Assembly (NCBI GenBank): GCA_017379255.1
Contig: JAFNWZ010000027.1
Span: 1 to 11,829, forward strand
DNA length: 11,829 nucleotides
Direction: 5' to 3'
Origin: Akkermansia sp.
Lineage (GTDB): Bacteria > Verrucomicrobiota > Verrucomicrobiia > Verrucomicrobiales > Akkermansiaceae
Part shown: positions 668-11,829 of the stretch, in pieces
Layout of the letters: the number at the start of each line of letters is the position of its first letter
Position numbering within the stretch: position 1 is the stretch's first letter
Position numbers and translations under genes: made by a program
Notes under the pieces: generated by a model
The model's database searches: none
Told to the model about the DNA's origin: nothing
The model's input: the letters and a program-made list of their open reading frames with translations, nothing else

Positions 668-1185
668 ATCCTCACCTGGTCGCGCCAGAGCTGGTCAAGC
701 TCTGCTGCATTTTCAGCACGCGGCAGCTTGCGGCGGCTGCGGGGCACGCTGCGATCCGAATCAAACGAAGGCATTGCTCTGGAATATTCCTGCAGCAGCT
801 TTTCAGCCAGGGCGATGCGCGGCAGTGCCCGGGCGCTGAAATAGGCATACAGCTCCTCCGCCAGGCGCGTTGTCTGGTTCGCCAGCAGGTAATCACCGAA
901 GCTGCTGGCATAACGCTTGCGGAGATATTCCACATCCTGCTGCGTCAGGAAAAGATGCTGGGCATCGAGCGATTGCACATAGCAGTCCAGAAACTTCTGG
1001 TACATATCCTGCGAGAACCGGGCGCGTGAGAAATGCGCATTCTGCAGCACGAGCGAAAACTGCTTACCGATGATATCGTAATCCGGTTCCGCCTGACTCA
1101 CAGAAGAGCACGACACCAACGCCGCCGCCGCGGCCATGGCGAGCGCGCGCGTACGCGCACGCCAGTTGTTGAAGATCATTTTCAT
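664..1185 (-). CDS. S41 carboxy-terminal processing peptidase, N-terminal part (lipoprotein signal plus Tsp N-terminal domain), ended by a frameshift
   Basis: A 173-residue product read from the ATG at 1185. An upstream in-frame TTG at 1206 follows a G-rich stretch and is an alternative start. Residues 1-26 form a basic then hydrophobic leader ending in the lipobox LVSC, with Cys26 as the likely lipidated residue, so the enzyme is probably anchored in the envelope. The rest matches the N-terminal helical domain of Prc/Tsp proteases: the LDAQHLFLTQQDV segment (about residues 73-85) corresponds to the family's conserved LDP.k.yFt..d block, and ELDQLWRDQV precedes the linker to the PDZ domain. 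The frame then hits TGA at 666-664, while the homologous continuation runs on in another frame (entry 1-667). One added base, for example reading GTG-AAG-GAT, would restore a single protein. No clear promoter was recognised upstream. Confidence 0.8.
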   Translation of the reverse strand: MKMIFNNWRARTRALAMAAAAALVSCSSVSQAEPDYDIIGKQFSLVLQNAHFSRARFSQDMYQKFLDCYVQSLDAQHLFLTQQDVEYLRKRYASSFGDYLLANQTTRLAEELYAYFSARALPRIALAEKLLQEYSRAMPSFDSDRSVPRSRRKLPRAENAAELDQLWRDQVRI

Positions 1186-1252
1186 ATATCGGGTAAAAAT
1201 TATCAATCCCCCCGGACCCTCCCAGGGAAAAGGCTTTCTCAGTTAAGTACCG

Positions 1253-1305
1253 GAAAAAAGCCAGCGTTCTGTCACGAAAACAACATCATGACAAAACCCG
1301 CTGGC
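1253..1305 (-). terminator. Rho-independent terminator of the OrfA-like gene
   Basis: On the minus strand a 7-bp stem (GCCAGCG at 1260-1266 pairing with CGCTGGC at 1299-1305) is followed directly by six T residues (1253-1259 region). A second small stem, GTCA 1271-1274 with TGAC 1289-1292, lies inside the long loop. It sits 15 bases past the stop of the gene at 1321-1734. Read on the plus strand the stem is followed by TGATTTTT, so it may work in both directions. Confidence 0.7.
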
Positions 1306-1320
1306 TGATTTTTCGATATC

Positions 1321-1734
1321 TCAGTCTTTCTTGCGGCGCGGGCGCTTAGCTTTAGCCAGCTTGCACCCCATGGCAGCCGCCATGTTGCGCACCCCCTGCT
1401 CCAGCTCAGCAATGCGGGTCTTGGCAGTTTTAAGAGCACCCTCCAGGCGGGTAGCCCGTGTCTTGGCCGTACGGGCAGCAATGCGGGCTACGCGCAGCTC
1501 CTCCTTCACGTCATCAGAGCAAGCCTCCACTTTGCGACGCCCGGGGCGAGTGCCGACAAAACGCTCCATAATGGCGTCTTCCGCCTGCTTCTTCCACAGA
1601 GAAATCAGAGTCGGTGCCACATTTTTTTCCTTGGCCACTTTCTGAATTGTTGTTTTACGGGTCAACACCGCCATAATGATTTCTGCTTTCTCCTCAGGCG
1701 CGTACGATGTGCGGGTTCTAGATTTTTCGGACAT
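1321..1734 (-). CDS. Stand-alone IS3 OrfA-like helix-turn-helix protein (HTH_Tnp_1 type), probably domesticated
   Basis: A 137-residue basic protein. Residues about 8-52 (SYAPEEKAEIIMAVL, then KVAKEKNVAPTLISLWKKQ) match the HTH_Tnp_1 domain of IS3-family OrfA proteins, which binds transposon ends. Residues about 75-118 are a predicted coiled coil with repeated KT/AR/LE heptads (RTAKTRATRLEGALKTAKTR), and the tail KLAKAKRPRRKKD is strongly basic. A normal OrfA is about 90-100 residues and is followed by an OrfB DDE integrase in the -1 frame. Neither OrfB nor terminal inverted repeats are visible, and the gene has its own terminator at 1253-1305. It is therefore more likely a DNA-binding protein derived from a transposase than a working element. 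Its ATG is 19 nt from the only good Shine-Dalgarno, which instead serves an upstream mini-ORF. DNA binding is inferred from the family; the target is unknown. Confidence 0.75.
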   Translation of the reverse strand: MSEKSRTRTSYAPEEKAEIIMAVLTRKTTIQKVAKEKNVAPTLISLWKKQAEDAIMERFVGTRPGRRKVEACSDDVKEELRVARIAARTAKTRATRLEGALKTAKTRIAELEQGVRNMAAAMGCKLAKAKRPRRKKD

Positions 1735-1747
1735 AATAATAAAACAT
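1718..1747 (-). CDS. Possible 9-codon leader ORF overlapping the start of the OrfA-like gene
   Basis: ATG at 1747-1745 follows the strong Shine-Dalgarno AAGGAGA (1760-1754) by 6 nt and encodes MFYYYVRKI, ending at TAG 1720-1718. This stop lies past the ATG of the OrfA-like gene (1734), so the two overlap in different frames by 17 bases. The arrangement suggests either translational coupling of the OrfA-like gene or a start-site decoy. Only the sequence arrangement is seen; translation is not shown. Confidence 0.35.
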   Translation of the reverse strand: MFYYYVRKI

Positions 1748-1753
1748 TCGGTG

Positions 1754-1760
1754 TCTCCTT
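1754..1760 (-). promoter_or_regulatory. Strong Shine-Dalgarno AAGGAGA, spaced for the leader ORF rather than the OrfA-like gene
   Basis: AAGGAGA is 6 nt before the ATG at 1747 but 19 nt before the ATG at 1734. It is one of only two strong Shine-Dalgarno sequences found in the window, which makes its odd spacing notable. The AT-rich DNA upstream has TATACT at 1793-1788, which could be a -10 element, but no convincing -35 was found. Confidence 0.5.
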
Positions 1761-1841
1761 GAATACTACTTTTAATCTGTTAAATCAAGTATATATTTCG
1801 TATTATCCTACATGCTGACACAAACAGCAGCAATAAACAGA

Positions 1842-1880
1842 AAAAAATCCCCTCACTTTATTCAAGTAAGGGGATTTTTT
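1842..1880 (-). terminator. Terminator just downstream of tRNA-Leu, symmetrical
   Basis: Six or more A residues, CCCCT (1849-1853), ACTT (1855-1858), a 5-nt loop, AAGT (1864-1867), AGGGG (1869-1873), then A and six T residues. The near-perfect hairpin with A and T tracts on its two sides terminates in both directions. On the minus strand it begins within five bases of the tRNA 3' end. Confidence 0.9.
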
Positions 1881-1884
1881 CTGA

Positions 1885-1966
1885 TACGCACGAATGGACT
1901 CGAACCATCACGATGTTACTCACTAGAACCTGAAACTAGCGCGTCTACCAATTCCGCCACGTGCGC
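1885..1966 (-). tRNA. tRNA-Leu (anticodon CAG)
   Basis: The minus strand folds as a class II leucine tRNA. The acceptor stem pairs GCGCACG with CGTGCGT (first pair G-U), followed by discriminator A. The D-arm has GCGGAATTGGTAGACGC, as in bacterial tRNA-Leu. The anticodon loop TTCAGGT presents CAG, in a stem CTAGT/TCTAG with one U-U mismatch at the loop end. A 13-nt variable arm and a T-arm with TTCGAGT follow. The 3' CCA is not encoded. A promoter lies upstream at 2014-1986 and a terminator immediately downstream, so it is a single-gene unit. It reads CUG codons. Confidence 0.96.
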
Positions 1967-1985
1967 ATTTGATTGGTGCAGGGGC

Positions 1986-2014
1986 AGTTTACCACAGATA
2001 TTTTTTTATTGCAA
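1986..2014 (-). promoter_or_regulatory. Promoter of tRNA-Leu (-35 TTGCAA, 17 bp, -10 TAAACT)
   Basis: TTGCAA at 2014-2009 and TAAACT at 1991-1986 are separated by exactly 17 bp, with TGG immediately before the -10. The predicted start lies about 13 nt before the mature tRNA 5' end. A-tracts upstream (2024-2035) could add curvature or an UP element. The G/C-rich bases after the -10 fit a stable-RNA discriminator. Confidence 0.7.
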
Positions 2015-2080
2015 GCCAAATTTGCAAAAAAAAATGATTTTTTCTTTTTTTTGCAGAGCCAGCGCCCGCGAGAAAGTAGC

Positions 2081-2109
2081 TTGCGCACGCGCGATGCGCG
2101 TGGTATAAT
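2081..2109 (+). promoter_or_regulatory. Kinase promoter (-35 TTGCGC, 17 bp, TGG-TATAAT), giving an almost leaderless mRNA
   Basis: A consensus TATAAT at 2104-2109, preceded by TGG, lies 17 bp from TTGCGC at 2081-2086. Transcription would start near 2116, only about 3 nt before the ATG at 2119, and no Shine-Dalgarno is present. Either the message is essentially leaderless or the true start is a downstream GTG (2170 or 2215). Confidence 0.75.
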
Positions 2110-2118
2110 GGCAGGCGC

Positions 2119-4761
2119 ATGAACCCAGAGAGCACAGCGGTATCCCCCACCACCCGCAGCAGACGCGGAGTGCCGAGGCGCGATTCACAACGCCCGGCGG
2201 ATACGCGCCCCGAGGTGCCGGATCATGAAATTCTGCGCAAGATTGGAACGGGGTCATACGGTGAAGTATGGCTGGCGCGCTCTGTAACAGGGGCATACCG
2301 AGCAGTCAAGGTGGTATGGCGAGAGGATTTTTCCGATGAACAGGTATTCATCCGCGAGTTTGATGGCATCCTGAGCTATGAACCCATAGCCCGCGGCATA
2401 CCGGGGCTGGTGCATATTCTGCACATCGGCCAGCACGGTGGGCAGTTCCCCTACTATTTCTATGTAATGGAACTGGCAGACGATGCCTACACGGGTTCAC
2501 ACACCGACCCCGGCTCCTACATTCCGCGCACATTGTACAGCGACATGCAGCAATACGGCAACCGCCCCATGCCACTGGATTATGTGCTGGAGGTGGGTTG
2601 CCAGCTGGCGCGCGCGCTCGCGGGGCTGCACGCGCAGGAACTGACCCACCGGGACGTCAAGCTCACCAATGTCATCTTTATCAACGGCAGAGTAAAACTG
2701 GCAGATGCCGGGCTGGTGGCGCACAGCAACCAGCGCAGCTTCGTGGGCACAGAGGGCTATATCCCCCCAGAGGGGCCCGGCACACCGCGGGCAGATGTCT
2801 TTGCCCTGGCAAAAGTGCTCTACGAAATGTCCACCGGCATGGACCGGCTCAACTTCCCCACCCTGCCGGCAAAACTGCCGGAGGGCACCAATTACCGCCG
2901 CTGGATTGAGTTCAACAACATTATCTGTGCCGCGGCAGACCCGCAGGTGCACCGCCACACCATCGTGAACGCCATCATGATGGCTGAGAAGCTGGAAGCC
3001 CTGCGGGATGAAGCCAGCATACGCCGCAAAAAGCGCCTCACCTGGCGGCAACGCGGCATCCGCGCCGGCATCTTCCTGCTCTGCGCCGGGCTGCTGGCAG
3101 GGCTCACCTACCTGCTGCTGCCGGAAGACATGGGAGACCGCCTGCGCAACGCAGCCGACTCCCTGCAGGGCAAACCGCCCGCACCGGCACCGCCGCCACC
3201 GGCCACCACCCCTGAACCACCGCCGCCCGTCCTGCCCCAGCACGGCCAATACTTCGTGGGCAGCGTGCCCGCGGGCGCCTCGGTCTACACCGAGGATGGC
3301 ATCTACCTGGACGAAACACCCTATGGCCCCATCACAGCCCAGGCCGGCAAACGCGTGGCATTCATTCTGCGCAAAGAGGGATACGCAGACACCCACACCA
3401 GCGGCATCATCCCGCCGGGCAACCTGCTTTCCCTGGGGGGAGAGCTGCTGCCATACCGGCCACCGCGTACCGGTGAAGACTGGACCGATGCCCAGGGAAC
3501 CCACTACCGCCCCGCCGGCGGCGTACACGAAGCCACTGCTCCGGTCACCCCGGCCCAATTCCAGGAATTCCTGAACGCAGACCCCGGCGCCGCCGCCAAA
3601 TACCCCAGTGCGGTCAGCGGCGGGCAGCTCCACACCTCCCAGGAGGGCATCAGCGCATTCACTTTGTGGCTAACCCGCCAGTGCGAAAAAGCCGGCACCA
3701 TCGGGAGAGACCACTCACTCATCGCCCGCCCGGAACCCGGCACAGAAGCCGGACCGGATCTCTGCGGCTACCGTCTCTACACCGTGCTGGTGCAGAAAAC
3801 CCCCGTCAGCATCTACACCAACCCGGCCGGGGCCAGTGTATCGCTCAACGGCATGCCGCTGGGCATCACCCCCATGCAGGGCGTGCGTATTCCCCTAGCT
3901 CCCTACTACCTGGAAATCCGCCTGCCGGGCTACTCCACCGTGCGCCGCAGCGGGCTTTCGCCCCAGGATCTGGTGCTCAACCTGCGCCTGCAGCCCAACC
4001 ATTCGGTCAACTTCGGGGCAGAATGGATTAACAGCCTGGGCATCAAGATGCAGCCCATACAGCCTAATCTGCTGGCCTGCGCCACCGAAATACGCGTGGA
4101 AGATTACAGCAACTACTGCCGGCACACCGGCGCCCCCGTGCCGCCACCCACCAGCTTTGAGCAGAACGAACACCACCCGGTGGTCAACATCACCCGCGCA
4201 GAGGCCGAAGCCTTTGCCGCCTGGCTCACCGGGCAGGAACGAGCCAATGGCCTCATCGAGGAAACAGACACCTACCGCCTGCCCACCGATGAGGAATGGA
4301 GCAACATGGTGGGCTGCAAAGATGCCGCGGGCGAAAGCCCGTATGAACGCCAGCGCCACCGCGCCACCGGCGCCACAGAATACCCTTGGGGCCGCAAATG
4401 GCCGCCCGCCTCGAACACGGGCAACTTTGCAGACACCGGCGCCATTCCCCACCTGCGCGCCGACCACACCATTCCGCAATACAACGATGATTTCACCCAC
4501 ACCGCTCCGGTGGGGTCATTCGCGCCCAATGCGCTGGGGCTGCACGACCTGGCAGGCAATGTACAGGAATGGGTGAGCGGGGAATACGGAGGCCCGGAGC
4601 ATTTCCATTTCCGGCGCTACGGCGTGACCCGCGGCGGCGATTATACCTCCTTCCGCCCCGGGCAGCTCAGCTCACACAGCCGCACCCCGCACCCGGCAGA
4701 CTCCCGCCGCCCCACCATCGGATTCAGGCTCGTTCTGGAACGCCAGCTGAACACCCCCTGA
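2119..4761 (+). CDS. Membrane Ser/Thr protein kinase with two PEGA domains and FGE-sulfatase (SUMF1-like) ectodomain
   Basis: An 880-residue protein. The kinase domain (about 36-295) has the Gly loop IGTGSYGEV (42-50), VAIK-type Lys64, HRDVKLTN (177-184), D196 in DAG instead of DFG, and PPE (216-218). A transmembrane helix (about 313-334) follows a basic RRKKR stretch, then a Pro-rich linker (351-373). Outside the membrane come PEGA repeat 1 (about 378-445), a shortened FGE-like segment (about 450-557), PEGA repeat 2 (about 562-625) and a full FGE-sulfatase fold (about 632-875: RLPTDEEW, LHDLAGNVQEW, TRGGDY, IGFRLVLE). Related kinase-FGE fusions occur in PVC bacteria, including chlamydial Pkn1. 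The C-terminal FGE block lacks the active-site cysteines of true formylglycine-generating enzymes, so ligand sensing is more likely than catalysis. It would pass an envelope signal to cytoplasmic substrates; those are unknown. It is transcribed alone. Confidence 0.9.
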   Translation: MNPESTAVSPTTRSRRGVPRRDSQRPADTRPEVPDHEILRKIGTGSYGEVWLARSVTGAYRAVKVVWREDFSDEQVFIREFDGILSYEPIARGIPGLVHILHIGQHGGQFPYYFYVMELADDAYTGSHTDPGSYIPRTLYSDMQQYGNRPMPLDYVLEVGCQLARALAGLHAQELTHRDVKLTNVIFINGRVKLADAGLVAHSNQRSFVGTEGYIPPEGPGTPRADVFALAKVLYEMSTGMDRLNFPTLPAKLPEGTNYRRWIEFNNIICAAADPQVHRHTIVNAIMMAEKLEALRDEASIRRKKRLTWRQRGIRAGIFLLCAGLLAGLTYLLLPEDMGDRLRNAADSLQGKPPAPAPPPPATTPEPPPPVLPQHGQYFVGSVPAGASVYTEDGIYLDETPYGPITAQAGKRVAFILRKEGYADTHTSGIIPPGNLLSLGGELLPYRPPRTGEDWTDAQGTHYRPAGGVHEATAPVTPAQFQEFLNADPGAAAKYPSAVSGGQLHTSQEGISAFTLWLTRQCEKAGTIGRDHSLIARPEPGTEAGPDLCGYRLYTVLVQKTPVSIYTNPAGASVSLNGMPLGITPMQGVRIPLAPYYLEIRLPGYSTVRRSGLSPQDLVLNLRLQPNHSVNFGAEWINSLGIKMQPIQPNLLACATEIRVEDYSNYCRHTGAPVPPPTSFEQNEHHPVVNITRAEAEAFAAWLTGQERANGLIEETDTYRLPTDEEWSNMVGCKDAAGESPYERQRHRATGATEYPWGRKWPPASNTGNFADTGAIPHLRADHTIPQYNDDFTHTAPVGSFAPNALGLHDLAGNVQEWVSGEYGGPEHFHFRRYGVTRGGDYTSFRPGQLSSHSRTPHPADSRRPTIGFRLVLERQLNTP

Positions 4762-4776
4762 GAAAGAATGACAAAA

Positions 4777-4850
4777 GTGATTAGTGACTAGTGATTAATG
4801 AATGTATAATGATGCCCGCCAGACAACCACTAATCACTAATCACTAATCA
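4777..4850. repeat. Inverted repeat made of tandem heptamers between convergent genes
   Basis: Left arm: GTGATTA, GTGACTA, GTGATTA (4777-4797). Right arm: CACTAAT three times (4828-4848), then CA. Positions 4778-4797 pair with 4831-4850 over 20 bp with one C-A mismatch, around a 33-nt loop. The TGA stop of the minus gene (4850-4848) forms the outer end of the right arm; the kinase stop (4759-4761) is 16 bases outside the left arm. There is no U-tract of normal length. It probably ends transcription from both sides or acts as a 3' stabiliser; this is inference. Confidence 0.85.
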
Positions 4851-5396
4851 TATTTCTCTTACCACGCTGCCGGGGTAGGTCTGGGTGCCCTCAGGCAGCA
4901 CGCGGCCGGGCAGAATCACGCATTTGCTACCAATGCGGCAGTGAGCCCCCACCACGCAGCCCAGCTTGTTCAGCCCGGTGGGCAGCAGTTCCCCTTGCCA
5001 GGGCATGCGGATTTCCCCGGCATCGTGCCGGAAATTGCTGAAAATGCAACCGCCGCCCACATTCACATCGTCGCGGATAATGGAATCGCCAATATAGCTG
5101 AGGTGGGACACAAACACCTGGTTACCCAGCAGGCTGCTCTTCACCTCCACCGCATTGCCAATCACGCACCCATCGCCCACGCTGGTTTCACCGCGCAAGT
5201 AAGCATGCGGGCCAATGCGGCAGCCACGGCCAATGCGCACATGCCCCTCAATCACCGTGCCGGGCAGCACCACTGAGCCCTCCCCCAGCGCCAGCACGCC
5301 CAGGATATGAGCACCAGGGCTCACCTCACCGCGGATATCCGGCTGCAGGTGCATGAGCTCTGCCCGGGCCGTCTCCAGCTCTTTCCACGGTTCCAT
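4848..5396 (-). CDS. Left-handed beta-helix (hexapeptide repeat) acyltransferase, GlmU C-terminal-like
   Basis: A 182-residue protein made mostly of hexapeptide repeats ([LIV]-G-x4), the LbH fold of the LpxA/GlmU superfamily. The segment VEVKSSLLG, SHLSYIGDS, VNVGGGCIFSNF closely tracks the acetyltransferase half of GlmU. It keeps the counterparts of the E. coli catalytic and binding residues: Lys86 (GlmU Lys351), His98 (His363) and Asn121 (Asn386); Tyr387 is Phe122. There is no N-terminal uridylyltransferase domain, so it is not a full GlmU, and its acceptor sugar cannot be read from sequence. It may acylate a nucleotide-activated amino sugar in the cytoplasm. The start is well supported: AAGGAGGAG lies 6 nt before the ATG, inside the end of the preceding gene, whose TAA touches this ATG. 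It is the last gene of the 7171-4848 cluster and ends inside the heptamer repeat. Confidence 0.8.
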   Translation of the reverse strand: MEPWKELETARAELMHLQPDIRGEVSPGAHILGVLALGEGSVVLPGTVIEGHVRIGRGCRIGPHAYLRGETSVGDGCVIGNAVEVKSSLLGNQVFVSHLSYIGDSIIRDDVNVGGGCIFSNFRHDAGEIRMPWQGELLPTGLNKLGCVVGAHCRIGSKCVILPGRVLPEGTQTYPGSVVREI

Positions 5397-6176
5397 TTAC
5401 GGCTCCTCCTTTCCGATACCGAACTTGCGGCAGGCCTCAAGCAAATGTTCATAGGCGGATTTCTCCTGCCCGGCGGGGCGCTCCATCAGCAACGCCTCCG
5501 GGTACACATGCGCATAGCGCCGCCCCTCTGCATCCCGCTGCAGTGCCGAAAAACGCAGGTTCACATCTGCCGCCGGGCATTCGCGCCACGGGCCACCCAG
5601 TCGCGCGGCAATATCGCGCACATTGCGGTAAGGGTAGCAGTATGTATTCACCCAGTAATCAACCTGCGGGGCACGCTCTCGGGGCTTGGAGCGCTCCCGG
5701 CGGCTCACCGGGTCCACAGTAAGCACCAGCACCCTGCCCGAGTGAGGCACATCCTCCACGCCGCGCAGCGCATCCATAATGGCCGAGCCGCCATAGCTAT
5801 GCCCCACCAGCACCACATCAGCCGCCGGATTCAGGGTCAGAAAAGCCCGCAAATCACGCTGCAGTTTCCAGGTGCTGTGAAAAAGCAGATTCCCCGTGCC
5901 GCTCTCCCAGGCATAATAGGCGCGCAGCTGCCTGCCCCCGCAGGGCAGCGGCGGGGTCTTCTCATAAATCTTGCGGAACTGCAACAGCACCGGCTCCGCA
6001 AAACCGCCCACAAAGATGAAAGCCACATCGGCCTGCTCCGCCCGCAGCGGCTCCTGCGTGCGCCGCTCAACAGGGCCCGTGCGGGGCGCAGGCTCAATCC
6101 CCGCCGCCACCTGCGGCTGGGAGCAGGAAGCCAGCATCCCGGCCAGTACCACGCAAGCTGTCAGCGCCTGTTTCAC
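5397..6176 (-). CDS. Alpha/beta-hydrolase-fold lipoprotein (putative esterase/lipase)
   Basis: Read from GTG at 6176 (259 residues) because this places a type II signal peptide at the N terminus: KQALTACVVLAGML then lipobox LASC, with Cys18 lipidated. A longer frame upstream to 6302 would bury the signal inside the preceding gene and is unlikely. DVAFIFVGGF (about 50-59) is the first beta strand and loop. VVLVGHSYGGSA carries the nucleophile elbow G-H-S-Y-G with Ser127. LTVDPVSRRE offers Asp155 as a possible acid, and a histidine such as His223 (YAHVYP) could complete the triad. The substrate is unknown. GTG overlaps the TGA of the preceding gene as GTGA, which suggests translational coupling, and its TAA abuts the next ATG. 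It sits in the envelope-related cluster with another lipoprotein. Fold is fairly sure; activity is inferred. Confidence 0.75.
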   Translation of the reverse strand: MKQALTACVVLAGMLASCSQPQVAAGIEPAPRTGPVERRTQEPLRAEQADVAFIFVGGFAEPVLLQFRKIYEKTPPLPCGGRQLRAYYAWESGTGNLLFHSTWKLQRDLRAFLTLNPAADVVLVGHSYGGSAIMDALRGVEDVPHSGRVLVLTVDPVSRRERSKPRERAPQVDYWVNTYCYPYRNVRDIAARLGGPWRECPAADVNLRFSALQRDAEGRRYAHVYPEALLMERPAGQEKSAYEHLLEACRKFGIGKEEP

Positions 6177-6613
6177 AGCTTTGTATTGAATACTTTTTCC
6201 AGATACGGCGCAAGAATGCTGTAAAGCTCGCGTTCCTGAGCTTCGGGCAGCACCACATCGTGCATCACCACGCGGTCGGTCATCACTGTTCCGGCCAGAC
6301 ACTGGCCATTGGAGGCGTAAAGATAGAAACGGTTCTTTACCAGCGGGTGGTGCTCATCATCTGTCTGGTAAGCCACCTCCGGCACGTGGCGGCGTTCACC
6401 TTCCTGCAGGATGGCGCAAACGCGCTCACGGGTCTTCGCCAACAGCAGTTTTCCGGGTTCATCATGCAACCATGCCGGCACAAAGGGAGTCACCATCAGG
6501 TGGGGGGAAGCCAGCATCTCCTCCACCGCATCCTGGCTCACACTGGCATTCTGCGGCACACAGGCGCTCAGCACCGCCGCCGTACATACCAAAAGGGCAG
6601 TCTTCTTCATCAT
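6173..6613 (-). CDS. Small lipoprotein of unknown function
   Basis: Read from the first of two adjacent ATGs (6613), giving 146 residues. MMKKTALLVCTAAVLSAC is a textbook lipoprotein signal with lipobox LSAC and Cys18. The mature part is mixed alpha/beta with many charged residues and two further cysteines (in ERVCAIL and NGQCLAG) that could form a disulfide after export. I do not recognise a family. It begins 12 nt after the stop of the tyrosine phosphatase gene, has no Shine-Dalgarno, and its TGA overlaps the GTG of the hydrolase gene, so it is almost certainly co-transcribed and co-translated with them. An in-frame TTG directly after the preceding stop is an unlikely alternative start. Confidence 0.75.
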   Translation of the reverse strand: MMKKTALLVCTAAVLSACVPQNASVSQDAVEEMLASPHLMVTPFVPAWLHDEPGKLLLAKTRERVCAILQEGERRHVPEVAYQTDDEHHPLVKNRFYLYASNGQCLAGTVMTDRVVMHDVVLPEAQERELYSILAPYLEKVFNTKL

Positions 6614-6625
6614 AACAAAAAACAA

Positions 6626-7171
6626 TCAGGATTCTGCGCGGGCAATATCACTGGCCATCTGCTGCGTGGCCGCCCGCAGCAACGCCACCACATCATCAAA
6701 ACCCTGGATGCCTCCATAGTAGGGGTCGGGCACTTCATGCAGCGGACAATCATCCGCAAACCAGGCGCTCATCGGCACCACCTTGGCCATTTCCTCCGGG
6801 GTTGCTGCCTTGGCAATGACCTCCTCGTAATTGGAATCATCCTGCGGCACAATCAAATCAAACGCCGCAAAATCCCGGCGGCTGAACTGGCGGCCGCGGT
6901 GGCCGTTGTACTCATAACCAGCGCGGGCCAGCGCGTCCCGCATGCGGGCATCCGGCTTTTCTCCGATGTGGTAGGAAGCCGTACCGCATGAATCGGACTC
7001 CACATGGTCTGCCAGCCCGGCCTCTTTCACCGCAGCATTGAACAAATGTTCTGCTGCTACCGAGCGGCAGATATTGCCCAGGCACACAAAAAGCACACGG
7101 AAGGGCTGCTGAGCAGATTCCGGTTGACCATCCCCGTCAATTCTGGTATGTACATCCATGTCAACCAGCAT
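6626..7171 (-). CDS. Low-molecular-weight protein tyrosine phosphatase (Wzb/LMW-PTP family)
   Basis: A 181-residue protein with the LMW-PTP P-loop VLFVCLGNICRS (C-x5-R: Cys30, Arg36) near the N terminus and the catalytic general acid in VPDPYYGG (Asp149). Both are at the expected spacing, so it should be an active phosphotyrosine phosphatase of the cytoplasm. SCGTASYHIGE and the HRGRQ block (about 91-95) are also typical. The start is ATG 7171, or five codons in at ATG 7159; the conserved domain begins at about residue 25, so both are possible. Bacterial members often pair with tyrosine kinases in polysaccharide export, but no such kinase is in this window; here the gene heads a cluster with two lipoproteins and a beta-helix acyltransferase. 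Its start is only 11 bp from that of the divergent queE gene. Confidence 0.92.
   Translation of the reverse strand: MLVDMDVHTRIDGDGQPESAQQPFRVLFVCLGNICRSVAAEHLFNAAVKEAGLADHVESDSCGTASYHIGEKPDARMRDALARAGYEYNGHRGRQFSRRDFAAFDLIVPQDDSNYEEVIAKAATPEEMAKVVPMSAWFADDCPLHEVPDPYYGGIQGFDDVVALLRAATQQMASDIARAES
7124..7152 (+). promoter_or_regulatory. Likely queE promoter (-35 TTGACC, 17 bp, extended -10 TGG-TATGTA)
   Basis: TTGACC at 7124-7129 and TATGTA at 7147-7152 are 17 bp apart, with TGG before the -10. The predicted start is near 7159, leaving about 24 nt before the ATG, too short for a preQ1 riboswitch. The promoter lies inside the 5' end of the divergent phosphatase gene. Confidence 0.55.
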
Positions 7172-7182
7172 CCTAGCATAAC

Positions 7183-7848
7183 ATGCTCAACATTGCACGC
7201 CTGAATTCTGCCCCCGAAATATTTTACTCCCTGCAGGGAGAAGGCATCCGCAGCGGCACCCCTGCCGTATTCCTGCGTCTGGCAGGGTGCAATCTGGCCT
7301 GTAAGTGGTGCGACACCAAGCACTCATGGGGGAACGGCATCCTCTGCTCCGTGCGGGATGTAGCCGCCCATCTGGAGGAATACAACTGCGCCTCCCTTGT
7401 CATAACTGGTGGTGAGCCCCTGCTCCAGCAAGGGCCGCTGGAAAAGCTGCTTGCCCTGCTCCCGGCCGGCCTCCACATCGAAGTGGAGACCAACGGCACA
7501 CTCATTCCCACCCCCGCCCTGGCGCAGCGGGTCAACCAGTGGAACGTGTCTCCCAAGCTGCAGCACTCAGGCAATGCGGGCGATAAATCCATCGTCCCCG
7601 CAGCGCTGGCTTTTTTTGCAGAGCACCCCTGCGCCTGGTTCAAGTTCGTGGTGCAAAACGAGGCCGACTGGGCGTCCATCGCCGCACTGGGGCTGCCACA
7701 GCAGCGCATCATCCTCATGCCCTGCGCCACCACCCGCACCGCGCTGGAGGCCGCCCGTCCTGCCGTAGTCGAGATGTGCCTGCGCCACGGCGTGCGCCTG
7801 GGCGACCGCCTGCACCTCTCCCTCTGGGATGATAAGAAAGGGGTGTAA
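7183..7848 (+). CDS. queE: 7-carboxy-7-deazaguanine synthase QueE (radical SAM)
   Basis: A 221-residue protein, the usual QueE length. EIFYSLQGEG (12-21) is the family's N-terminal hallmark. The cluster motif is C-x3-C-x2-C (Cys36, Cys40, Cys43, in GCNLACKWCDT), which binds the 4Fe-4S cluster that cleaves S-adenosylmethionine. TGGEPLLQ (75-82), VETNGT (101-106) and NVSPK (121-125) are the expected SAM and substrate motifs. QueE converts 6-carboxytetrahydropterin to 7-carboxy-7-deazaguanine on the path to preQ0 and queuosine, which modifies tRNAs with GUN anticodons. No other queuosine gene is present here. There is no Shine-Dalgarno before the ATG; a promoter lies at 7124-7152. The gene is divergent from the phosphatase cluster and is followed by the outer-membrane protein gene, which has its own promoter-like sequence. 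Confidence 0.95.
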   Translation: MLNIARLNSAPEIFYSLQGEGIRSGTPAVFLRLAGCNLACKWCDTKHSWGNGILCSVRDVAAHLEEYNCASLVITGGEPLLQQGPLEKLLALLPAGLHIEVETNGTLIPTPALAQRVNQWNVSPKLQHSGNAGDKSIVPAALAFFAEHPCAWFKFVVQNEADWASIAALGLPQQRIILMPCATTRTALEAARPAVVEMCLRHGVRLGDRLHLSLWDDKKGV

Positions 7849-7853
7849 GGCAC

Positions 7854-7868
7854 AGAACTGTTAGTTCT
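7854..7868 (+). terminator. Small hairpin after queE, weak terminator candidate
   Basis: AGAACT, GTT, AGTTCT forms a 6-bp stem with a 3-nt loop, starting five bases after the queE stop. No U-tract follows, so termination is uncertain; an overlapping alternative stem GTTAG/CTAAC also exists. Confidence 0.3.
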
Positions 7869-7874
7869 AACCTC

Positions 7875-7903
7875 TTGATAAAACAGCCTTGTAGTGCTAA
7901 GTA
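7875..7903 (+). promoter_or_regulatory. Promoter candidate for the beta-barrel gene (TTGATA, 17 bp, TGC-TAAGTA)
   Basis: TTGATA at 7875-7880 and TAAGTA at 7898-7903 are 17 bp apart, with an extended -10 TGC. The predicted start near 7910 is about 3 nt before the ATG at 7913. The -10 is a weak match, so confidence is moderate to low. Confidence 0.45.
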
Positions 7904-7912
7904 TGGGGTGCT

Positions 7913-8515
7913 ATGAAAACCACCCTGTTCTGCCTCTGCCTGCTGGCTGGCAGCGCTGCTGCTGCCCCATATTACCTGCCCTCGCCCCAGCCGGGAGCGC
8001 TTACCGATGCCGACTGGCAACCAACCAACCGGCTGGAAGGCCTCTACGCCATAGGCGCTTCCCACACGCCCGATACTGCGGGTTTCCGCCTGGGGCAAAG
8101 CCTCTACAGCCCGGCAGATTCCAGCATACGCCACGAATTCAGCCTCCAGATAGCCCCGCAGTGGGGCAGCGGCCACCGCACGCGTCATGAGCACCGCAGC
8201 CACCAGGATATTTTCCTGGCACCCCTGACAGGTGGCTACACGCTCAACCTCGGTCTGACCGATGATATCTACCTGTATCTGGGAGGCAAGGCTGGCTGGG
8301 CCTTCGGGCATTACAAAGAAAAATCCCCGGTCTATAAGGAAAGCGGCTACGTCAACGGATTCACCTTCTCAGCCGGCGGCGGGCTTAAAATCCGCTGCAG
8401 CGAACGCCTCTATGCCCAGCTGGGCTACGAATTCGGACGCACCTACACCAACAACCGGCACGATGACACCCTGGGACAGCACATCATCACCGCCGGGCTC
8501 GGGTGGCAGTTCTGA
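7913..8515 (+). CDS. Outer-membrane beta-barrel protein
   Basis: A 200-residue protein with a cleavable signal peptide (MKTTLFCLCLLAGSAAAA, cleaved near residue 18). The mature part shows alternating hydrophobic and polar strands rich in Gly, Tyr and Phe, such as IYLYLGGKAGWAFG, FTFSAGGGLKI and LYAQLGYEFGR, and ends GLGWQF. A C-terminal aromatic residue is the recognition signal of the outer-membrane assembly machinery. The size suggests an eight-stranded barrel of the OmpA/OmpX or OMP_b-brl type. A specific function, whether adhesin, small porin or structural protein, cannot be read. The ATG has only a weak G-rich sequence before it and a promoter-like sequence about 10 nt upstream. The TGA stop forms the first three bases of the heptamer repeat at 8513. 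Confidence 0.8.
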   Translation: MKTTLFCLCLLAGSAAAAPYYLPSPQPGALTDADWQPTNRLEGLYAIGASHTPDTAGFRLGQSLYSPADSSIRHEFSLQIAPQWGSGHRTRHEHRSHQDIFLAPLTGGYTLNLGLTDDIYLYLGGKAGWAFGHYKEKSPVYKESGYVNGFTFSAGGGLKIRCSERLYAQLGYEFGRTYTNNRHDDTLGQHIITAGLGWQF

Positions 8516-8672
8516 ATGTAGGTTGTTGGATGTAGAATGTATTGAGTCTGGCAAGCTAAGGCCTGCAGTCAGTATGCTTTCATCAACCCTACGGCATGCC
8601 CAGCTTAAAGGCCGGGGCTTCGTCTGCTGCGCGCAGCGCAGGGAACTCCATACATTCAACATTCTACATTCA
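8513..8672. repeat. Inverted repeat of tandem heptamers with a structured 116-bp centre, between convergent genes
   Basis: Left arm: T plus four heptamers GAATGTA, GGTTGTT, GGATGTA, GAATGTA (8514-8541). Right arm: TACATTC, AACATTC, TACATTC (8651-8671). Positions 8513-8534 pair with 8651-8672 over 22 positions with 19 identities; two of the three differences are G-U pairs. In another register the inner blocks 8535-8547 and 8645-8657 pair 12 of 13. The stops of both flanking genes (TGA 8513-8515 plus, TGA 8672-8670 minus) are the outermost bases of the arms. The centre includes the palindromes GGCATGCC (8593-8600) and GCTGCGCGCAGC (8626-8637) and no ORF of its own. Confidence 0.85.
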
Positions 8673-9359
8673 ACGGTAGTCCCTCTTGCCGAAAATGGCA
8701 GAGCCCACGCGCACAATGGTAGCCCCTTCCTCCACCGCCACGGCGTAATCATGGCTCATGCCCATGGAAAGCTCCGGCAGGGGGAGCGGGCCGCAGGCGC
8801 GCAGGCGCTCTGCCAGCTCGCGCAGAGCGCGGAATGCCGGGCGCGCCCCCTCCGGGGCTTCCGAGGGCGCAGGGATGCACATCAACCCGCGTATTTCCAG
8901 ATACGGCAGCGCCACCAGTTGCGCCCAGGATTCCAGCAACTCCGCCGGGGTAAAGCCATGCTTGCTTTCCTCGGCATCCACATTCACCTCCAGCAGGATA
9001 CGCGCAGTACAGCCCAGCTCACCCGCTATGCGGGAAACCGTCTCTGCAAGGCGCAGCGAATCCACCGCCTGCAGCAGCCCGAAGCCCTGTTCCAGCGCCT
9101 TGCGTACCTTGTTGCGCTGCAGCGGGCCGATGAGATGCCACTCGCAATCGCCCGGCATTTCCGGCATCTTGCCCATGGCTTCCTGCAGGCGGTTTTCGCC
9201 AAAGAGACGCTGACCGTCATTATATGCCTGCATGATATCCTCCACCGGGAAGGTCTTGCTCACAGCCAGCAGCTTCACACTGCCCGCCGGGCGTCCGGCG
9301 CGCCGTTCTGCCGCGGCAATACTGGCTTTAATCTCCTGCAACTGGTCCTGTATGTACAT
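8670..9359 (-). CDS. yggS: YggS-family pyridoxal phosphate homeostasis protein (PLPBP)
   Basis: Read from ATG 9359 (229 residues, the normal family length); a longer frame to 9434 adds a non-conserved extension. The family blocks are all present: LLAVSKTFP with the PLP-binding Lys35, FGENRLQEA (about 53-61), WHLIGPLQRNKVR (74-86), VDSLRLAE, ILLEVNVDAEESKHGF (121-136), GLMCIPAP, and the C-terminal LSMGMSHDYAVAVEEG with TIVRVGSAIFG. The fold is a single TIM-like barrel related to alanine racemase N-terminal domains. It binds PLP in the cytoplasm and keeps B6 vitamers and amino-acid pools in balance, without known catalysis. A TGG-TATGAT element ends 6 nt before the ATG, so transcription would begin at the start codon itself. 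The stop lies in the heptamer repeat shared with the convergent beta-barrel gene. Confidence 0.95.
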   Translation of the reverse strand: MYIQDQLQEIKASIAAAERRAGRPAGSVKLLAVSKTFPVEDIMQAYNDGQRLFGENRLQEAMGKMPEMPGDCEWHLIGPLQRNKVRKALEQGFGLLQAVDSLRLAETVSRIAGELGCTARILLEVNVDAEESKHGFTPAELLESWAQLVALPYLEIRGLMCIPAPSEAPEGARPAFRALRELAERLRACGPLPLPELSMGMSHDYAVAVEEGATIVRVGSAIFGKRDYR

Positions 9360-9365
9360 GGCTGC

Positions 9366-9374
9366 ATCATACCA
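9366..9374 (-). promoter_or_regulatory. Extended -10 (TGG-TATGAT) immediately before yggS
   Basis: TATGAT at 9371-9366 with TGG at 9374-9372. The usual 7-nt spacing puts the transcription start on the A of the yggS ATG (9359). The -35 region (TCGCAT at 17 bp) is poor, so the promoter would rely on the extended -10. Confidence 0.45.
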
Positions 9375-9449
9375 CACCCCCTCCCCCAATGCGAGAAAAA
9401 AGGCGGTATTCTGCATAGCGAACAGCAGACTCATTCAGAAAGTTTATCC

Positions 9450-9478
9450 TTGCCGGGCGGCGTCCGGCGTGGTACACA
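9450..9478 (+). promoter_or_regulatory. Promoter candidate for the thioredoxin-like gene (TTGCCG, 17 bp, TGG-TACACA)
   Basis: TTGCCG at 9450-9455 and TACACA at 9473-9478 are 17 bp apart with TGG before the -10. The predicted start near 9485 is 2 nt before ATG 9487, and the -10 overlaps the alternative ATG at 9478, arguing for 9487 as the start. Confidence 0.45.
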
Positions 9479-9486
9479 TGGTAGAT

Positions 9487-10443
9487 ATGCACCACTTTCG
9501 CACCATTTTGTACGCCACTGGCCTGTGCGCCCTCATCAGCCCCGCCTTCTCCAGTGAATGGATAACCGATTTCGAGGAGGCAAAAGCCCGGGCACGGGCT
9601 GAAAACAAGGCCATATTTGCCAATTTCACCGGGTCTGACTGGTGCGGCTACTGCATGCGCATGAAACGGCAGGTGCTCGACACCCCGGAGTTCCTGGCCT
9701 ATGTGCGGGATAAGTTCGTGCTGCTCGAAATTGATTTGCCACGCCGCAAACAAGTGGACGCTGCCGTTCTCGAAGAACGGCGCAGGCTCTGCCAGCGGTA
9801 CGAGGTGACAGGTTTCCCCACCTTTGTAACCATGAGCCACACGGGTGAAGTGCTGGGCGGCTGGGTAGGCGCCCGGCCCGATGTGGCCAGCACCACCACC
9901 CTGCTGGATACCGCCCTGGCACGCGGGCAACAGCTTACCGCGGCGCGCCAGCTGCAGGGCACGGCGCGCGCCCGGGCGCTCATGGAGGTTTACCAGAGCT
10001 TCCCCAAGAACTTCAAGCACGCCGCCGCAGCGCTGCGCAAGGAGATTCACGACCACGACCCCGACGATACCACGGGGCTGAAGGAACAAGCCATGGCCGA
10101 TGCCCAGATGCTCGAGCTCATGGAGCAGCTCAATGCCCATTACCGCGATTACCAGCGCCAGACGGAGATTTTCGACTCCTTCATAGCGCAGGCCCACCCG
10201 CTCAACCAGGAGCGCATCATGGAGCTGAAGCGCGATATGGTCGTGTTCCCGTGTCTGAATATCATGCTGCTCAACGCGGACAGTGTGGAGGAGGTGCTGA
10301 AGGCGCGCGATTATGTGCTCAAGGAAGCGCAGAACTCATACCCCGACCACATGAAGGCGGACATGATAAAGGCACTGGAGGCCAATTTCCAAAACCCCGA
10401 AGCCCTGCTGCAGCAGGTGCGTGCCCGCCGGGCACGCACCTGA
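9487..10443 (+). CDS. Exported thioredoxin-fold protein with CGYC active site and helical C-terminal domain
   Basis: Read from ATG 9487 (318 residues); an ATG three codons upstream and a much longer frame from 9232 are alternatives, but only a start near 9487 puts the signal peptide (RTILYATGLCALISPAFS) at the N terminus. The thioredoxin domain spans about 24-145: FANFTGSDWCGYC with redox Cys53 and Cys56, and the cis-proline loop GFPTF (Pro111). This resembles the Thioredoxin_7 group, periplasmic reductases or chaperone-like proteins. The remaining 170 residues are helical and charged (for example ARALMEVYQSFPKNF, QERIMELKRDMVVFP), with no family recognised. It probably handles disulfides or folding in the periplasm; partners are unknown. 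A perfect 11-bp hairpin is encoded in its last codons. Confidence 0.8.
   Translation: MHHFRTILYATGLCALISPAFSSEWITDFEEAKARARAENKAIFANFTGSDWCGYCMRMKRQVLDTPEFLAYVRDKFVLLEIDLPRRKQVDAAVLEERRRLCQRYEVTGFPTFVTMSHTGEVLGGWVGARPDVASTTTLLDTALARGQQLTAARQLQGTARARALMEVYQSFPKNFKHAAAALRKEIHDHDPDDTTGLKEQAMADAQMLELMEQLNAHYRDYQRQTEIFDSFIAQAHPLNQERIMELKRDMVVFPCLNIMLLNADSVEEVLKARDYVLKEAQNSYPDHMKADMIKALEANFQNPEALLQQVRARRART
10404..10440 (+). terminator. Two perfect palindromes in the last codons of the thioredoxin-like gene
   Basis: CCTGCTGCAGCAGG (10404-10417) is a 14-bp palindrome. GGTGCGTGCCC (10416-10426) pairs perfectly with GGGCACGCACC (10430-10440) over 11 bp with a 3-nt loop, ending at the base before the TGA stop. 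Only a weak T-run (GATTCCGCTTTCT) follows, so it may stall RNA polymerase or protect the 3' end rather than act as a strong terminator. Confidence 0.5.
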
Positions 10444-10479
10444 TTCCGCTTTCTGCAGCCACGTGGCAAGAGGAAAAGC

Positions 10480-10878
10480 TCACAGCCGCCCCTCGTTGCG
10501 CATATCCTGCACAAAGCGGCTGATGGTGGATACGTTTACGAAGAAGGCATCTGCGGCCTCGCGCAGTGGTGCCCCGGGATGCGCTTTCAGAAATGCAAGC
10601 AGAGCTTCATCCCGCTTGTGCGGGCGGCGTTTGCGGGGCGGTCTTTCCCTTTTGGCAGGCAGAGAGGGTCTGGCAATCATCATTCTGACCGTATTGCCGG
10701 AAACCGTAACCTCCGGTGAAGCCAACCCCGCAGACGCACAAGCCTGCAGGACGCGCTGAATGCCAGTTCCCCATTGCTCTACGATGTTCATCTTACGGAA
10801 CACATCGGCCAGAAGAGGATTTCGCAGACGGGAATACCCGGAAAGCATTTCCTCCACGGTCAGATTGTCGTATAGCAT
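10480..10878 (-). pseudogene. C-terminal remnant of an AlbA_2/RecG-like ATP-binding protein
   Basis: The encoded LTVEEMLSGYSRLRNPLLADVFRKMNIVEQWGTGIQRV is the hallmark C-terminal block (HATPase_c_4 type) of the AlbA_2/COG2865 'ATP-binding' or 'RecG-like' proteins. It is followed by a winged-helix-like tail (EALLAFLKAHPGAPLREAADAFFV, then STISRFVQDM). Full proteins are about 400-550 residues and begin with an AlbA_2 (Schlafen-like) domain; here everything before the block is missing. The frame instead runs into a 10-bp tandem repeat and then the terminator of the neighbouring RRM gene. Translation could begin at ATG 10878 in the repeat, giving 132 residues, but there is no evident promoter. 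I regard it as a deletion remnant; a short expressed DNA-binding protein is possible. It converges on the thioredoxin-like gene, 36 bp away. Confidence 0.7.
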
Positions 10879-10917
10879 CTTTTTGCATCTTTTTGCATCT
10901 TTTTGCATCTTTTTGCA
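10875..10917. repeat. Tandem repeat: four perfect 10-bp units GCATCTTTTT
   Basis: Units occupy 10875-10884, 10885-10894, 10895-10904 and 10905-10914, plus a partial GCA. Read on the minus strand each unit carries an ATG, and since ten is not a multiple of three successive ATGs fall in successive frames. No stop occurs in any frame of the array. It lies exactly where the remnant gene loses similarity to its family. Confidence 0.95.
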
Positions 10918-10960
10918 AAAAGAAAGAAAATCGCGCGCACCTGTTCCGGGTGCGCGCGAT
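10917..10960 (-). terminator. Strong intrinsic terminator of the RRM gene
   Basis: ATCGCGCGCACC (10930-10941) pairs perfectly over 12 bp with GGTGCGCGCGAT (10949-10960) around a 7-nt loop. On the minus strand it is followed by a T-rich run (TTTTCTTTCTTTTT). It lies 25 bp past the stop of the RRM gene. Confidence 0.9.
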
Positions 10961-10985
10961 GGCATCAAATCAAGCGTAAGTAAAA

Positions 10986-11651
10986 TTATTCCTCTGCGGG
11001 AGCAGCCGGGGCTTCGGGGGCAGCAGGCTCAGCAGGGGCTGCCTCAACCGCGGTCTCTGCGGGCTTCTCCTCAGGTTTCTCAGGCGTTTCCGGGCGTTCG
11101 CTGGCGGCGCTCACCATGAGCTCACGCCCCATGAAGGGCTGGCCGTGCAGCACCTCGGCAGCGCGCTGGGCATCCTCCAGCTTCTGCATCTCCACAAAGG
11201 CATAGCCCTTGCTCTTGTAAGTGCGGGTGTTATAGATGATTTCCACGCTGCGCACATTGCCAAATCCCTTGAAGAGATCCTCCAGCTCAGCTTCGGAAGC
11301 CTCGTAGGAAAGATTACCTACATAGAGGCGGGCATTGCGGGTGGGGGAAACGGAAGCCGGGCGGCGGCGCTGTTTCTCCTGGCGGGCGGCGGGGTTGCCC
11401 CCCTGGTTATTGCGCCCCTTGGCCACGCGCACGTTCTCCTTGGGTTTGCGCTTGTCATTCTTGCGGTTTTCTTTCTGGGCACCCTCTTTCTTCTTGCCGA
11501 AACCGAAGAAATTGAGAATGCGCTGCAGCAGACCGGGCTTGGGAGCGGGCTGTTCCTGGCGCGGCATACGGCGGCGGTACGGACGGCCCTTATTATTACG
11601 GCGGCGGCGGGCTCCCTGTCCCTGCCGGCCTTGTGTATAATGTTCTGCCAT
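10986..11651 (-). CDS. RRM-domain RNA-binding protein with basic N-terminal and acidic Pro/Ala-rich C-terminal regions
   Basis: A 221-residue protein. A single RNA-recognition motif spans about residues 107-183, with RNP2 LYVGNL (109-114) and RNP1 KGYAFVEM (148-155). The last RNP1 aromatic is Met, but the other stacking aromatics are kept. The first 100 residues are very basic and low in complexity (ARRRRNNKGR, RKNDKRKPK), with a short hydrophobic segment LLQRILNFFGFG (41-52). The last 35 are a Glu/Pro/Ala-rich tail. Single-RRM proteins in bacteria are usually short (about 80-150 residues) and are linked to RNA chaperone or cold-response roles; the long disordered arms here are unusual and could support RNA-rich assemblies. 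RNA binding is well supported; the function is inference. There is no Shine-Dalgarno before the ATG, and it is monocistronic with a strong terminator. Confidence 0.85.
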   Translation of the reverse strand: MAEHYTQGRQGQGARRRRNNKGRPYRRRMPRQEQPAPKPGLLQRILNFFGFGKKKEGAQKENRKNDKRKPKENVRVAKGRNNQGGNPAARQEKQRRRPASVSPTRNARLYVGNLSYEASEAELEDLFKGFGNVRSVEIIYNTRTYKSKGYAFVEMQKLEDAQRAAEVLHGQPFMGRELMVSAASERPETPEKPEEKPAETAVEAAPAEPAAPEAPAAPAEE

Positions 11652-11829
11652 GTTGGTTATTGAATCGGATTACTATGCGGAATCATGCCCGGCTCTGCCT
11701 GTACATACCCGGCGGCCTGGGCATTTGAGAGATTTGATAGATAGGTTGGACACACGATGTCCAACTCCATGTTACTACACCCGCCCCCACACGCAAGCCA
11801 AAATCGCGCCAGCATGGGGAAATTCCGGA
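11652..11829. other. Upstream region of the RRM gene, no confident gene
   Basis: It holds the likely minus-strand promoter region of the RRM gene (no convincing -10/-35 pair found) and the inverted repeat at 11745-11765. A minus-strand frame from ATG 11770 to TAA 11657 encodes 37 residues (MELDIVCPTY...) and is open back to the right edge; nothing in it is recognisable. I see no reliable coding sequence. Confidence 0.5.
11745..11765. repeat. Perfect 8-bp inverted repeat, possible operator
   Basis: GTTGGACA, CACGA, TGTCCAAC: two perfect 8-bp arms with a 5-nt centre, about 95 bp upstream of the RRM gene start. No U-tract follows on either strand, so a protein-binding site or RNA hairpin is more likely than a terminator. 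Confidence 0.5.

Follow-up and report, generated by a model that had tools for sequence, protein, structure and literature searches.

Inverted heptanucleotide hairpins at convergent gene ends of an Akkermansia genome: probable ORF-less members of a class of IVP-type insertion elements

The intervening sequences (IVSs) known from 23S rRNA do not all carry the S23p/IVP open reading frame (ORF). IVSs are co-transcribed with the host RNA and excised by RNase III (PMC4990558). The family TIGR02436/PF05635 represents the IVP, the four-helix-bundle protein of these sequences. Tandem repeats with a period of 7 bp have been described independently; the TAACTGA repeats of Beggiatoaceae, Cyanobacteria and Bacteroidetes are mostly intergenic, differ mostly by 7-nt insertions or deletions and show a strain-specific placing, some of them are located between stop codons, and their transmission by mobile elements has been raised as a possibility (PMC4679880). 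The same source credits Mrazek et al. with the finding that, among long simple repeats, the heptanucleotide class is the commonest in most genomes, and with the proposal that slippage gives rise to them. In this work we analyzed a stretch of 11,829 nt from Akkermansia sp. (GenBank assembly GCA_017379255.1, contig JAFNWZ010000027.1, positions 1 to 11,829), hereafter the window, which carries two hairpins (elements 1 and 2) formed by inverted arrays of heptamers at convergent gene ends. We conclude that these hairpins are probably ORF-less members of a class of IVP-type insertion elements located between protein genes.

The closest described system is the IVS of the Coxiella 23S rRNA (PMC4990558), which shares with the elements analyzed here a small ORF of the same family, complementary borders, sporadic presence and decaying ORFs; in addition, a plasmid-borne 23S IVS bears heptamer arms that resemble those of the intergenic copies. 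The window elements have complementary borders capable of forming a long stem, but no IVP ORF was detected in them. In contrast to IVSs, the elements of the window, like every other copy compared except that of Azospirillum lipoferum, are found between protein genes, their arms are built of tandem 7-mers whose units change, and many copies of the element occur per genome. With the heptamer-armed IVP elements described below, the window elements share inverted period-7 arrays with matched units, and with the long heptanucleotide simple repeats they share tandem 7-bp units and an intergenic location. The TAACTGA repeats, in contrast, are direct, have one unit and, in the main genome, are mostly placed just upstream of start codons, with one indirect repeat; in the part of PMC4679880 available, no link to an IVP gene is mentioned. 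The constant-size, variable-sequence tandem repeats of Bacillus likewise keep the unit length fixed and fall into several families by unit sequence, although their units are of 20-21 and 52 nt and inverted arms are not reported in the part of PMC8161180 available. Among the rRNA-gene insertions of the Candidate Phyla Radiation there are IVP ORFs, as well as shorter ORF-less forms at the same sites; however, in the available portion of PMC11270868 these insertions are restricted to rRNA and mostly carry homing endonucleases, and the word tandem is absent from the main text. The IVP genes found in cas loci (PMC3936711) and Avd of the diversity-generating retroelements (PMC10053308) belong to the same protein superfamily. 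A description of the link between IVP and heptamer arms was not found in searches of open PMC papers, made over listings and parts of some papers.

The first-pass annotation of the window had reported two inverted period-7 hairpins at convergent gene ends without a common unit, and this observation was confirmed. In element 1 (4776-4852, unit GATTAGT), Tandem Repeats Finder (TRF) detects period-7 arrays at 4776-4794 and 4828-4850, and a repeat search pairs 4776-4796 with 4825-4845 (90% complementary), leaving a loop of about 18-28 nt; read inward, the unit is (TGATTAG)n. In element 2 (8513-8674) the unit is GAATGTW, read inward as (TGAATGT/AGAATGT)n, TRF detects period 7 at 8652-8674, and 8513-8534 pairs with 8651-8672 (86% complementary) around a loop of about 110-116 nt. 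The arm-pair scores, 37 for element 1 and 29 for element 2, exceed the respective control maxima of 29 and 25, and neither was reached by any of 5000 N-free windows drawn from 48 contigs of the same genome. The predicted RNA folds have energies of -27.0 kcal/mol (z -6.6) for element 1 and -63.4 kcal/mol (z -4.2) for element 2. Three of the four flanking genes (those of the hexapeptide-repeat, beta-barrel and YggS-like proteins; Table 1) end in a stop codon located within an array, and the stop codon of the kinase/FGE gene lies 14 nt ahead of the element 1 array, outside of it. Three terminator-like matches were found in 4700-8720, none of them on element 1 or 2, which fits with the earlier statement that neither hairpin has a normal U-tract. 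The only Rfam match in the window is a tRNA, and both elements are placed between protein genes and not inside rRNA.

The relationship with IVSs was suggested by other genomes of the genus (G000 designates the genome of the window, G036 its sister genome, and other G numbers relatives). In relatives, a small ORF that matches the TIGR02436/PF05635 profile was found in the spacer between GATTAGT arms; of 76 genus genomes, 55 have PF05635 above the cut-off, with up to 15 copies. The upstream flank of each IVP ORF was compared with the reverse-complemented downstream flank, using 290 genus windows as a control (maximum score, 29). In the first set, composed of the best match of each of 30 genomes, the arms scored above this maximum at 21 loci; the second set included the unseen listed matches of G000, G034 and G036 together with L032, L152 and L188, which were already known as array loci, and gave 21 of 25, with one ORF left out and one common to the first set. 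Over both sets, 41 of the 54 different IVP ORFs scored above all the controls. Some arms consist of heptamer arrays and others of successive small hairpins with 7-8-nt linkers, mirrored across the ORF. Period 7 was present in 38 of 198 flank segments (6 of 404 controls) and period 8 in 9 (2 controls), and lag analysis in four sets showed an excess at 7, 14 and 21. In distant families of the phylum 33 IVP ORFs were found, of which 30 were scored and 11 exceeded the maximum of 143 controls; in these families several arms have a period of 8. Two of four IVP proteins gave weak matches to Avd, below the cut-off; for the IVP family, structures have been solved (2GSC and 2RLD). At L360, L362, L364-L368, L370-L373, L375, L376, L378, L414, L418, L425 and L430 the IVP ORF is flanked by small, mutually unrelated palindromes connected through linkers of a constant 7-8 nt (e.g. 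ATATCGTC), and many of these loci show the series mirrored across the ORF. At L351, the IVP match that ranks highest in the genus is adjoined by a long CCAAGCT array that enters an assembly gap; heptamer arrays may break assemblies and in this way hide elements.

Outside the phylum, inverted heptamer arms were seen at all four IVP loci compared (of 20 sought, in genomes picked for holding a GATTAGT array), two of them from Bacteroidota, one from a cyanobacterium and one from a Gemmatimonadaceae genome. Their scores of 36-72 were obtained without a separate control, and one of these ORFs (L466) is interrupted by a stop codon. From 27 matching plasmid records 12 were scored; seven were above 29 and six above the highest local control (31). 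An eighth plasmid case is p2 of Azospirillum lipoferum 4B, the score of which rose from 15, obtained from a misplaced ORF start, to 47 once the start was re-examined. In this plasmid the IVP ORF interrupts a bacterial large subunit rRNA gene and the stem consists of inverted period-7 arrays; this insertion is a true IVS with heptamer arms. In two cyanobacterial plasmids (L469 and L471) the four-helix-bundle gene stands between cas6 and cas4 with clear heptamer arrays adjoining it, which suggests that the IVP gene is there a passenger insertion and not a Cas component. In another cyanobacterial plasmid (L474) the gene is located between cas10 and cmr3.

The presence or absence of the complete element was followed at a junction upstream of an aminopeptidase-like gene, which is present in 74 genomes, and 30 of its loci, from as many species, were compared. 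In 11 of these loci an IVP element lies between the aminopeptidase-like gene and the preceding gene; the other 19 are empty, with 4-23 nt from stop codon to ATG (by eye) and no heptamers. All 11 IVPs are co-oriented with the host genes, and a co-oriented ORF within inverted arms fits the IVS design, i.e. co-transcription and removal by RNase III, in an operon gap. The IVP groups at this junction are only 31-36% identical to one another, and between G000 and G036 the IVPs are 66% identical whereas the adjoining neighbour protein is 96% identical. By eye, the arm unit tracks the IVP group: GAATAGT goes with one, GATTAGT with a second, and GATTAAG/GATTAGG with a third. Given this correspondence, and the divergence of the IVPs beside a conserved neighbour, the arms seem to arrive together with the element, and the site has been struck several times. 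Loss of the ORF was observed at another junction, where G036 has a 128-aa IVP in GATTGAC arms and G033 has kept the arms with a 46-residue remnant left after an internal deletion; this provides a possible route to bare hairpins like those of the window. A shortened copy (G036:C69) and a 280-nt ORF-less copy of hairpins and linkers (G036:C105) are both absent in G000. Between these two sister genomes, array lengths differ by 7, 14 and 35 nt. A separate insertion of 219 nt, present in G000:C54 (L031, ~18690-18910) and absent in G036, has CCTGG at both edges, imperfect GATTTGC terminal inverted repeats and a TGTACAA-type heptamer hairpin nested within; a similar left end occurs in L024, L104 and L429.

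The junctions occupied by the window elements were also compared. Both genes that flank element 1 were found in 10 of 30 loci. G000 and G036 both hold element 1, with a difference of exactly one unit of 7 nt; the GATTAGT palindrome of G034 lacks a spacer, and G026 has another unit, GAAGTAC, in arms of ~35 nt that enclose ~70 nt, so that heptamers are present in three relatives. Of the six loci that lack heptamers, three show by eye a short GC-rich stem, two consist of a very short gap and one of a gap of 241 nt; G031 and G042 are among the genomes without heptamers, with gaps of 15 and 33 nt, respectively. Element 1 has the unit alone in common with IVP-bearing copies, and these are at another junction. 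At the junction of element 2, G036 carries the element (81% identity) with arrays that differ by 14 nt in length, G034 has a one-sided GATTAGT array, and in G043 (L482), one of the two relatives compared besides G036, there is an ordinary stem-loop followed by UUUGAGUAUUU. Junction sites are reused with different units. Copies of the right part of the element 2 spacer with the right arm (8623-8674 or less), with 76-90% identity, were found in G034, G040 and G036, and two more in G000, i.e. in four of 76 genomes when that of the window is included. With two copies that adjoin IVP genes, G036:C46 and G040:C256, element 2 aligns along the arm and its inner border (E 8.8e-5, 47 query nt, a good part of which is the arm itself). 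The first-pass annotation had attributed the heptamer arms to a process that generates or maintains them rather than to the spread of one mobile repeat; as stated, this is not supported, given the insertion differences between sister species and the relatives of element 2, and it is further countered by the recurrence of the arms as termini of a gene-bearing insertion. The earlier observation holds, and its interpretation is partly supported.

The existence of a class of arrays with a constant period of 7 bp and variable units, also anticipated, was borne out by a survey of 1.34 Mb from five genomes (that of the window and four relatives), much of it picked for holding one unit, in which 62 arrays were found. 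By eye, the units GATTAGT, GAATAGT, GATTGAC, GAATTAC, GAAGTAC, GATTTAC, GATGAAA, GGATTAA and GAATGTA were noted. A reading of the arrays as a universal stop cassette, with a stop codon in every frame, was rejected as a general rule: worked through by hand, the inward-read strand of units such as GAAGTAC, GATTTAC and GAATGCA contains no stop trinucleotide. In 381 kb of G033, from contigs chosen because pattern matches were present, 17 arrays of period 7 were detected at 17/21 matches and none of periods 4, 5, 8, 10, 11 or 13; at 12/14 matches there were 20. The samples of G036, G026 and G015 contained 10, 9 and 3 arrays, and in an unbiased sample of 265 kb from the window's own genome a single period-7 array was found at 12/14, not above periods 8, 10 and 11. 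The unbiased sample speaks against the proposed genome-wide enrichment; density is therefore patchy, and G015 has few arrays. The proposed association with stop codons is supported: half of the arrays (31 of 62) overlap a called stop codon, with a tolerance of 10 nt, against a mean of 2.6 and a maximum of 8 in 200 random placements; for start codons the figures are 8 of 62, 2.7 and 8. Genes were called with a purpose-made caller based on codon usage, which makes some starts too short. Where both neighbours were called (48 arrays), 15 arrays were convergent, 31 tandem and 2 divergent, and these gap types represent 16.5, 62.4 and 21.2% of all gaps; convergent gaps are thus enriched about two-fold, as had been suggested, but convergence is not the rule, and divergent gaps are nearly devoid of arrays. 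Two long arrays of G033 have no detected inverted partner, one of GATTAGT with ~15 units (L168:11061-11170) and one of CACTAAT/CACTAAA with ~22 units up to the fetched end (L153:18841-19000).

A complete element consists of a 7-bp (sometimes 8-bp) array, the IVP/S23 gene and the same array inverted, with units that vary among copies and two arms that agree within one copy. From these results we propose that the element would insert at a gene end, often providing the stop codon of the preceding gene; when co-transcribed with its neighbours the arms would pair, leaving the ORF in the loop, and by analogy with the 23S IVSs the duplex would probably be cut by RNase III. Tolerated sites would be those where a break in the RNA is harmless, such as rRNA helices, operon gaps and 3' ends. 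Arrays lengthen and shorten mostly by whole units, and after loss of the ORF the hairpin-forming arms remain, perhaps acting at convergent junctions as an end structure for both transcripts. In the window, the two copies may once have carried an ORF, their arms may pair in RNA like those of the rRNA IVSs, and the hairpins may have a role in 3'-end formation. The matching of the arms despite changing units could reflect selection for the duplex or copying of one arm to the other.

Several results weigh against this proposal. The search of the window, spacers included, detected neither an IVP nor a remnant of it; at other loci the same search overlooked two short remnants. An inverted partner better than shuffled flanks was found within 450 nt for only 26 of the 62 arrays, and only four arrays have a detected IVP ORF or fragment within 300 nt (chance ~0.3, with six IVP matches in the sample), or eight if the two remnants recognized by eye (L156 and L188; four arrays) are added. 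Among the IVP loci of the genus, 13 of 54 are not above 29, some of them with heptamers by eye; many arms are hairpin series instead of heptamers, and several of the 30 loci of the first set are orthologous copies in near relatives and hence non-independent. When arms were swapped among loci the contrast was weaker, with 8 of 30 loci above the 99th percentile (76.9) and 21 above the 95th (29.5), the swapped scores being inflated because related elements share arms. One array difference, between non-orthologous IVP copies, is of 12 nt, which is not a multiple of 7. A reverse transcriptase was considered as the mover and rejected, given that RVT_1 occurs in 18 of 73 genomes and in none of G000, G034 and G036. 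In addition, at least 120 stretches from many phyla contain (GTGATTA)x3, and among the stretches listed an IVP was found beside the array in none of 120 with the genus profile and in one of 120 with a broader profile; the genus profile recovered 16 of 16 IVP loci from other phyla and plasmids and missed the one locus caught by the broader one. The reversed-unit control of the pattern search is not clean for TAATCAC, since reading this unit backwards yields a rotated form of the same unit. PF05635 is present in 27 of 30 genomes picked from (GTGATTA)x3 matches, a count from which no conclusion is drawn. Most arrays then stand alone, which leaves two readings: the majority are relics, or heptamers grow by a broader process of which the IVP elements make use.

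The latter possibility leads to an explanation that we regard as rather unlikely but as the foremost of the alternatives, namely a general slippage of heptanucleotides, in which polymerase slippage would generate arrays in 7-nt steps wherever they are tolerated, inverted partners would be produced by fold-back copying, and IVP elements would be just one kind of insertion that acquires or rides the arrays. The 7-nt steps between arrays, the majority of arrays without a detected IVP, the wide distribution of the exact 21-mer (GTGATTA)x3 and the proposal of Mrazek et al. (as given in PMC4679880) agree with it; slippage alone leaves unexplained the matched inverted arms around one gene family, the presence or absence of whole elements and the units linked to IVP groups at one junction, and the 19 empty aminopeptidase junctions show no heptamers. 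It is improbable that the hairpins are instead bidirectional transcript ends kept by selection, replacing terminators, with the repeat as a by-product, as the first-pass annotation had suggested in part. The enrichment at stop codons and in convergent gaps, the near absence from divergent gaps and the strong predicted folds of both elements are in line with such a function, and the ordinary stem-loop of G043 at the element-2 junction gives some support to terminator replacement; however, 31 of the 48 classifiable arrays are in tandem gaps, neither element has a terminator-like match, and the element-1 junctions of G031 and G042 do without heptamers. A conventional DNA transposon derivative (a miniature inverted-repeat transposable element) with heptamer terminal repeats by chance would account for dispersed copies with precise presence or absence, and one of three compared insertions, that of 219 nt, has the 5-bp direct repeat CCTGG at its edges. 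Nevertheless, this insertion resembles a heptamer hairpin nested inside another repeat, no constant terminal sequence was seen, and the units vary among copies and are of the same kinds as those around IVP genes, which makes this explanation highly improbable.

Two other features of the window were noted. A 10-bp repeat (GCATCTTTTT) is present in 4.3 perfect copies at 10875-10917, close to where a 162-aa ORF on the reverse strand starts. A small ORF with a transposase-type helix-turn-helix (HTH_Tnp_1) is located at 1321-1734, and near it there are a 17-bp stem at 1842-1880 (94% complementary) and a tRNA at 1885-1966.

Table 1. Coordinates in the window of elements 1 and 2 and of the genes that flank them
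Feature	Position	Strand	Basis or remark
Kinase / PEGA / FGE-sulfatase fusion protein	2119..4761	+	Left neighbour of element 1; stop TGA 4759-4761
Element 1 left heptamer arm, GATTAGT units	4776..4805	+	Repeat finding, TRF
Element 1 spacer	4806..4823		Repeat pairing
Element 1 right heptamer arm	4824..4852	-	One 7-nt unit longer than the G036 counterpart
Hexapeptide-repeat protein	4848..5396	-	Stop codon (4848-4850) coincides with the first TGA in the right arm
Outer-membrane beta-barrel protein	7913..8515	+	Stop TGA 8513-8515 begins the element 2 left arm
Element 2 left heptamer arm (TGAATGT/AGGTTGT/TGGATGT/AGAATGT)	8513..8540	+	Sequence, repeat pairing
Element 2 structured spacer	8541..8650		Repeat recurrence, RNA fold
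Element 2 inner GC palindrome CTGCGCGCAGCGCAG	8627..8641		Sequence
Element 2 right heptamer arm	8651..8674	-	Contains the stop codon of the YggS-like gene, 8670-8672
YggS-like (Ala_racemase_N) protein	8670..9434	-	Right neighbour of element 2

What is new in this work is the description of IVS-like elements outside rRNA whose ends are defined by a period. A broader proposition, which we advance tentatively and with considerable doubt, is that many bacterial heptanucleotide repeats are the arms or relics of one pan-bacterial, transposase-less class of element with the IVP as its only gene, the ends of which are a matched repeat of fixed length; the rRNA IVSs would be the special case noticed first, and the IVP would aid the spread of the element or the matching of its arms. 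Such an element would tie together the excess of 7-bp repeats in bacteria, the so far unexplained mobility of the rRNA IVSs and a four-helix-bundle gene without assigned function that annotation pipelines detect in several phyla. It leads to testable claims, i.e. that the arms pair and are cut, that the ORF-less hairpins are relics, and that the IVP genes considered as Cas-associated may be passengers. If true, ends set by a period instead of by a sequence would be unusual for an insertion element.

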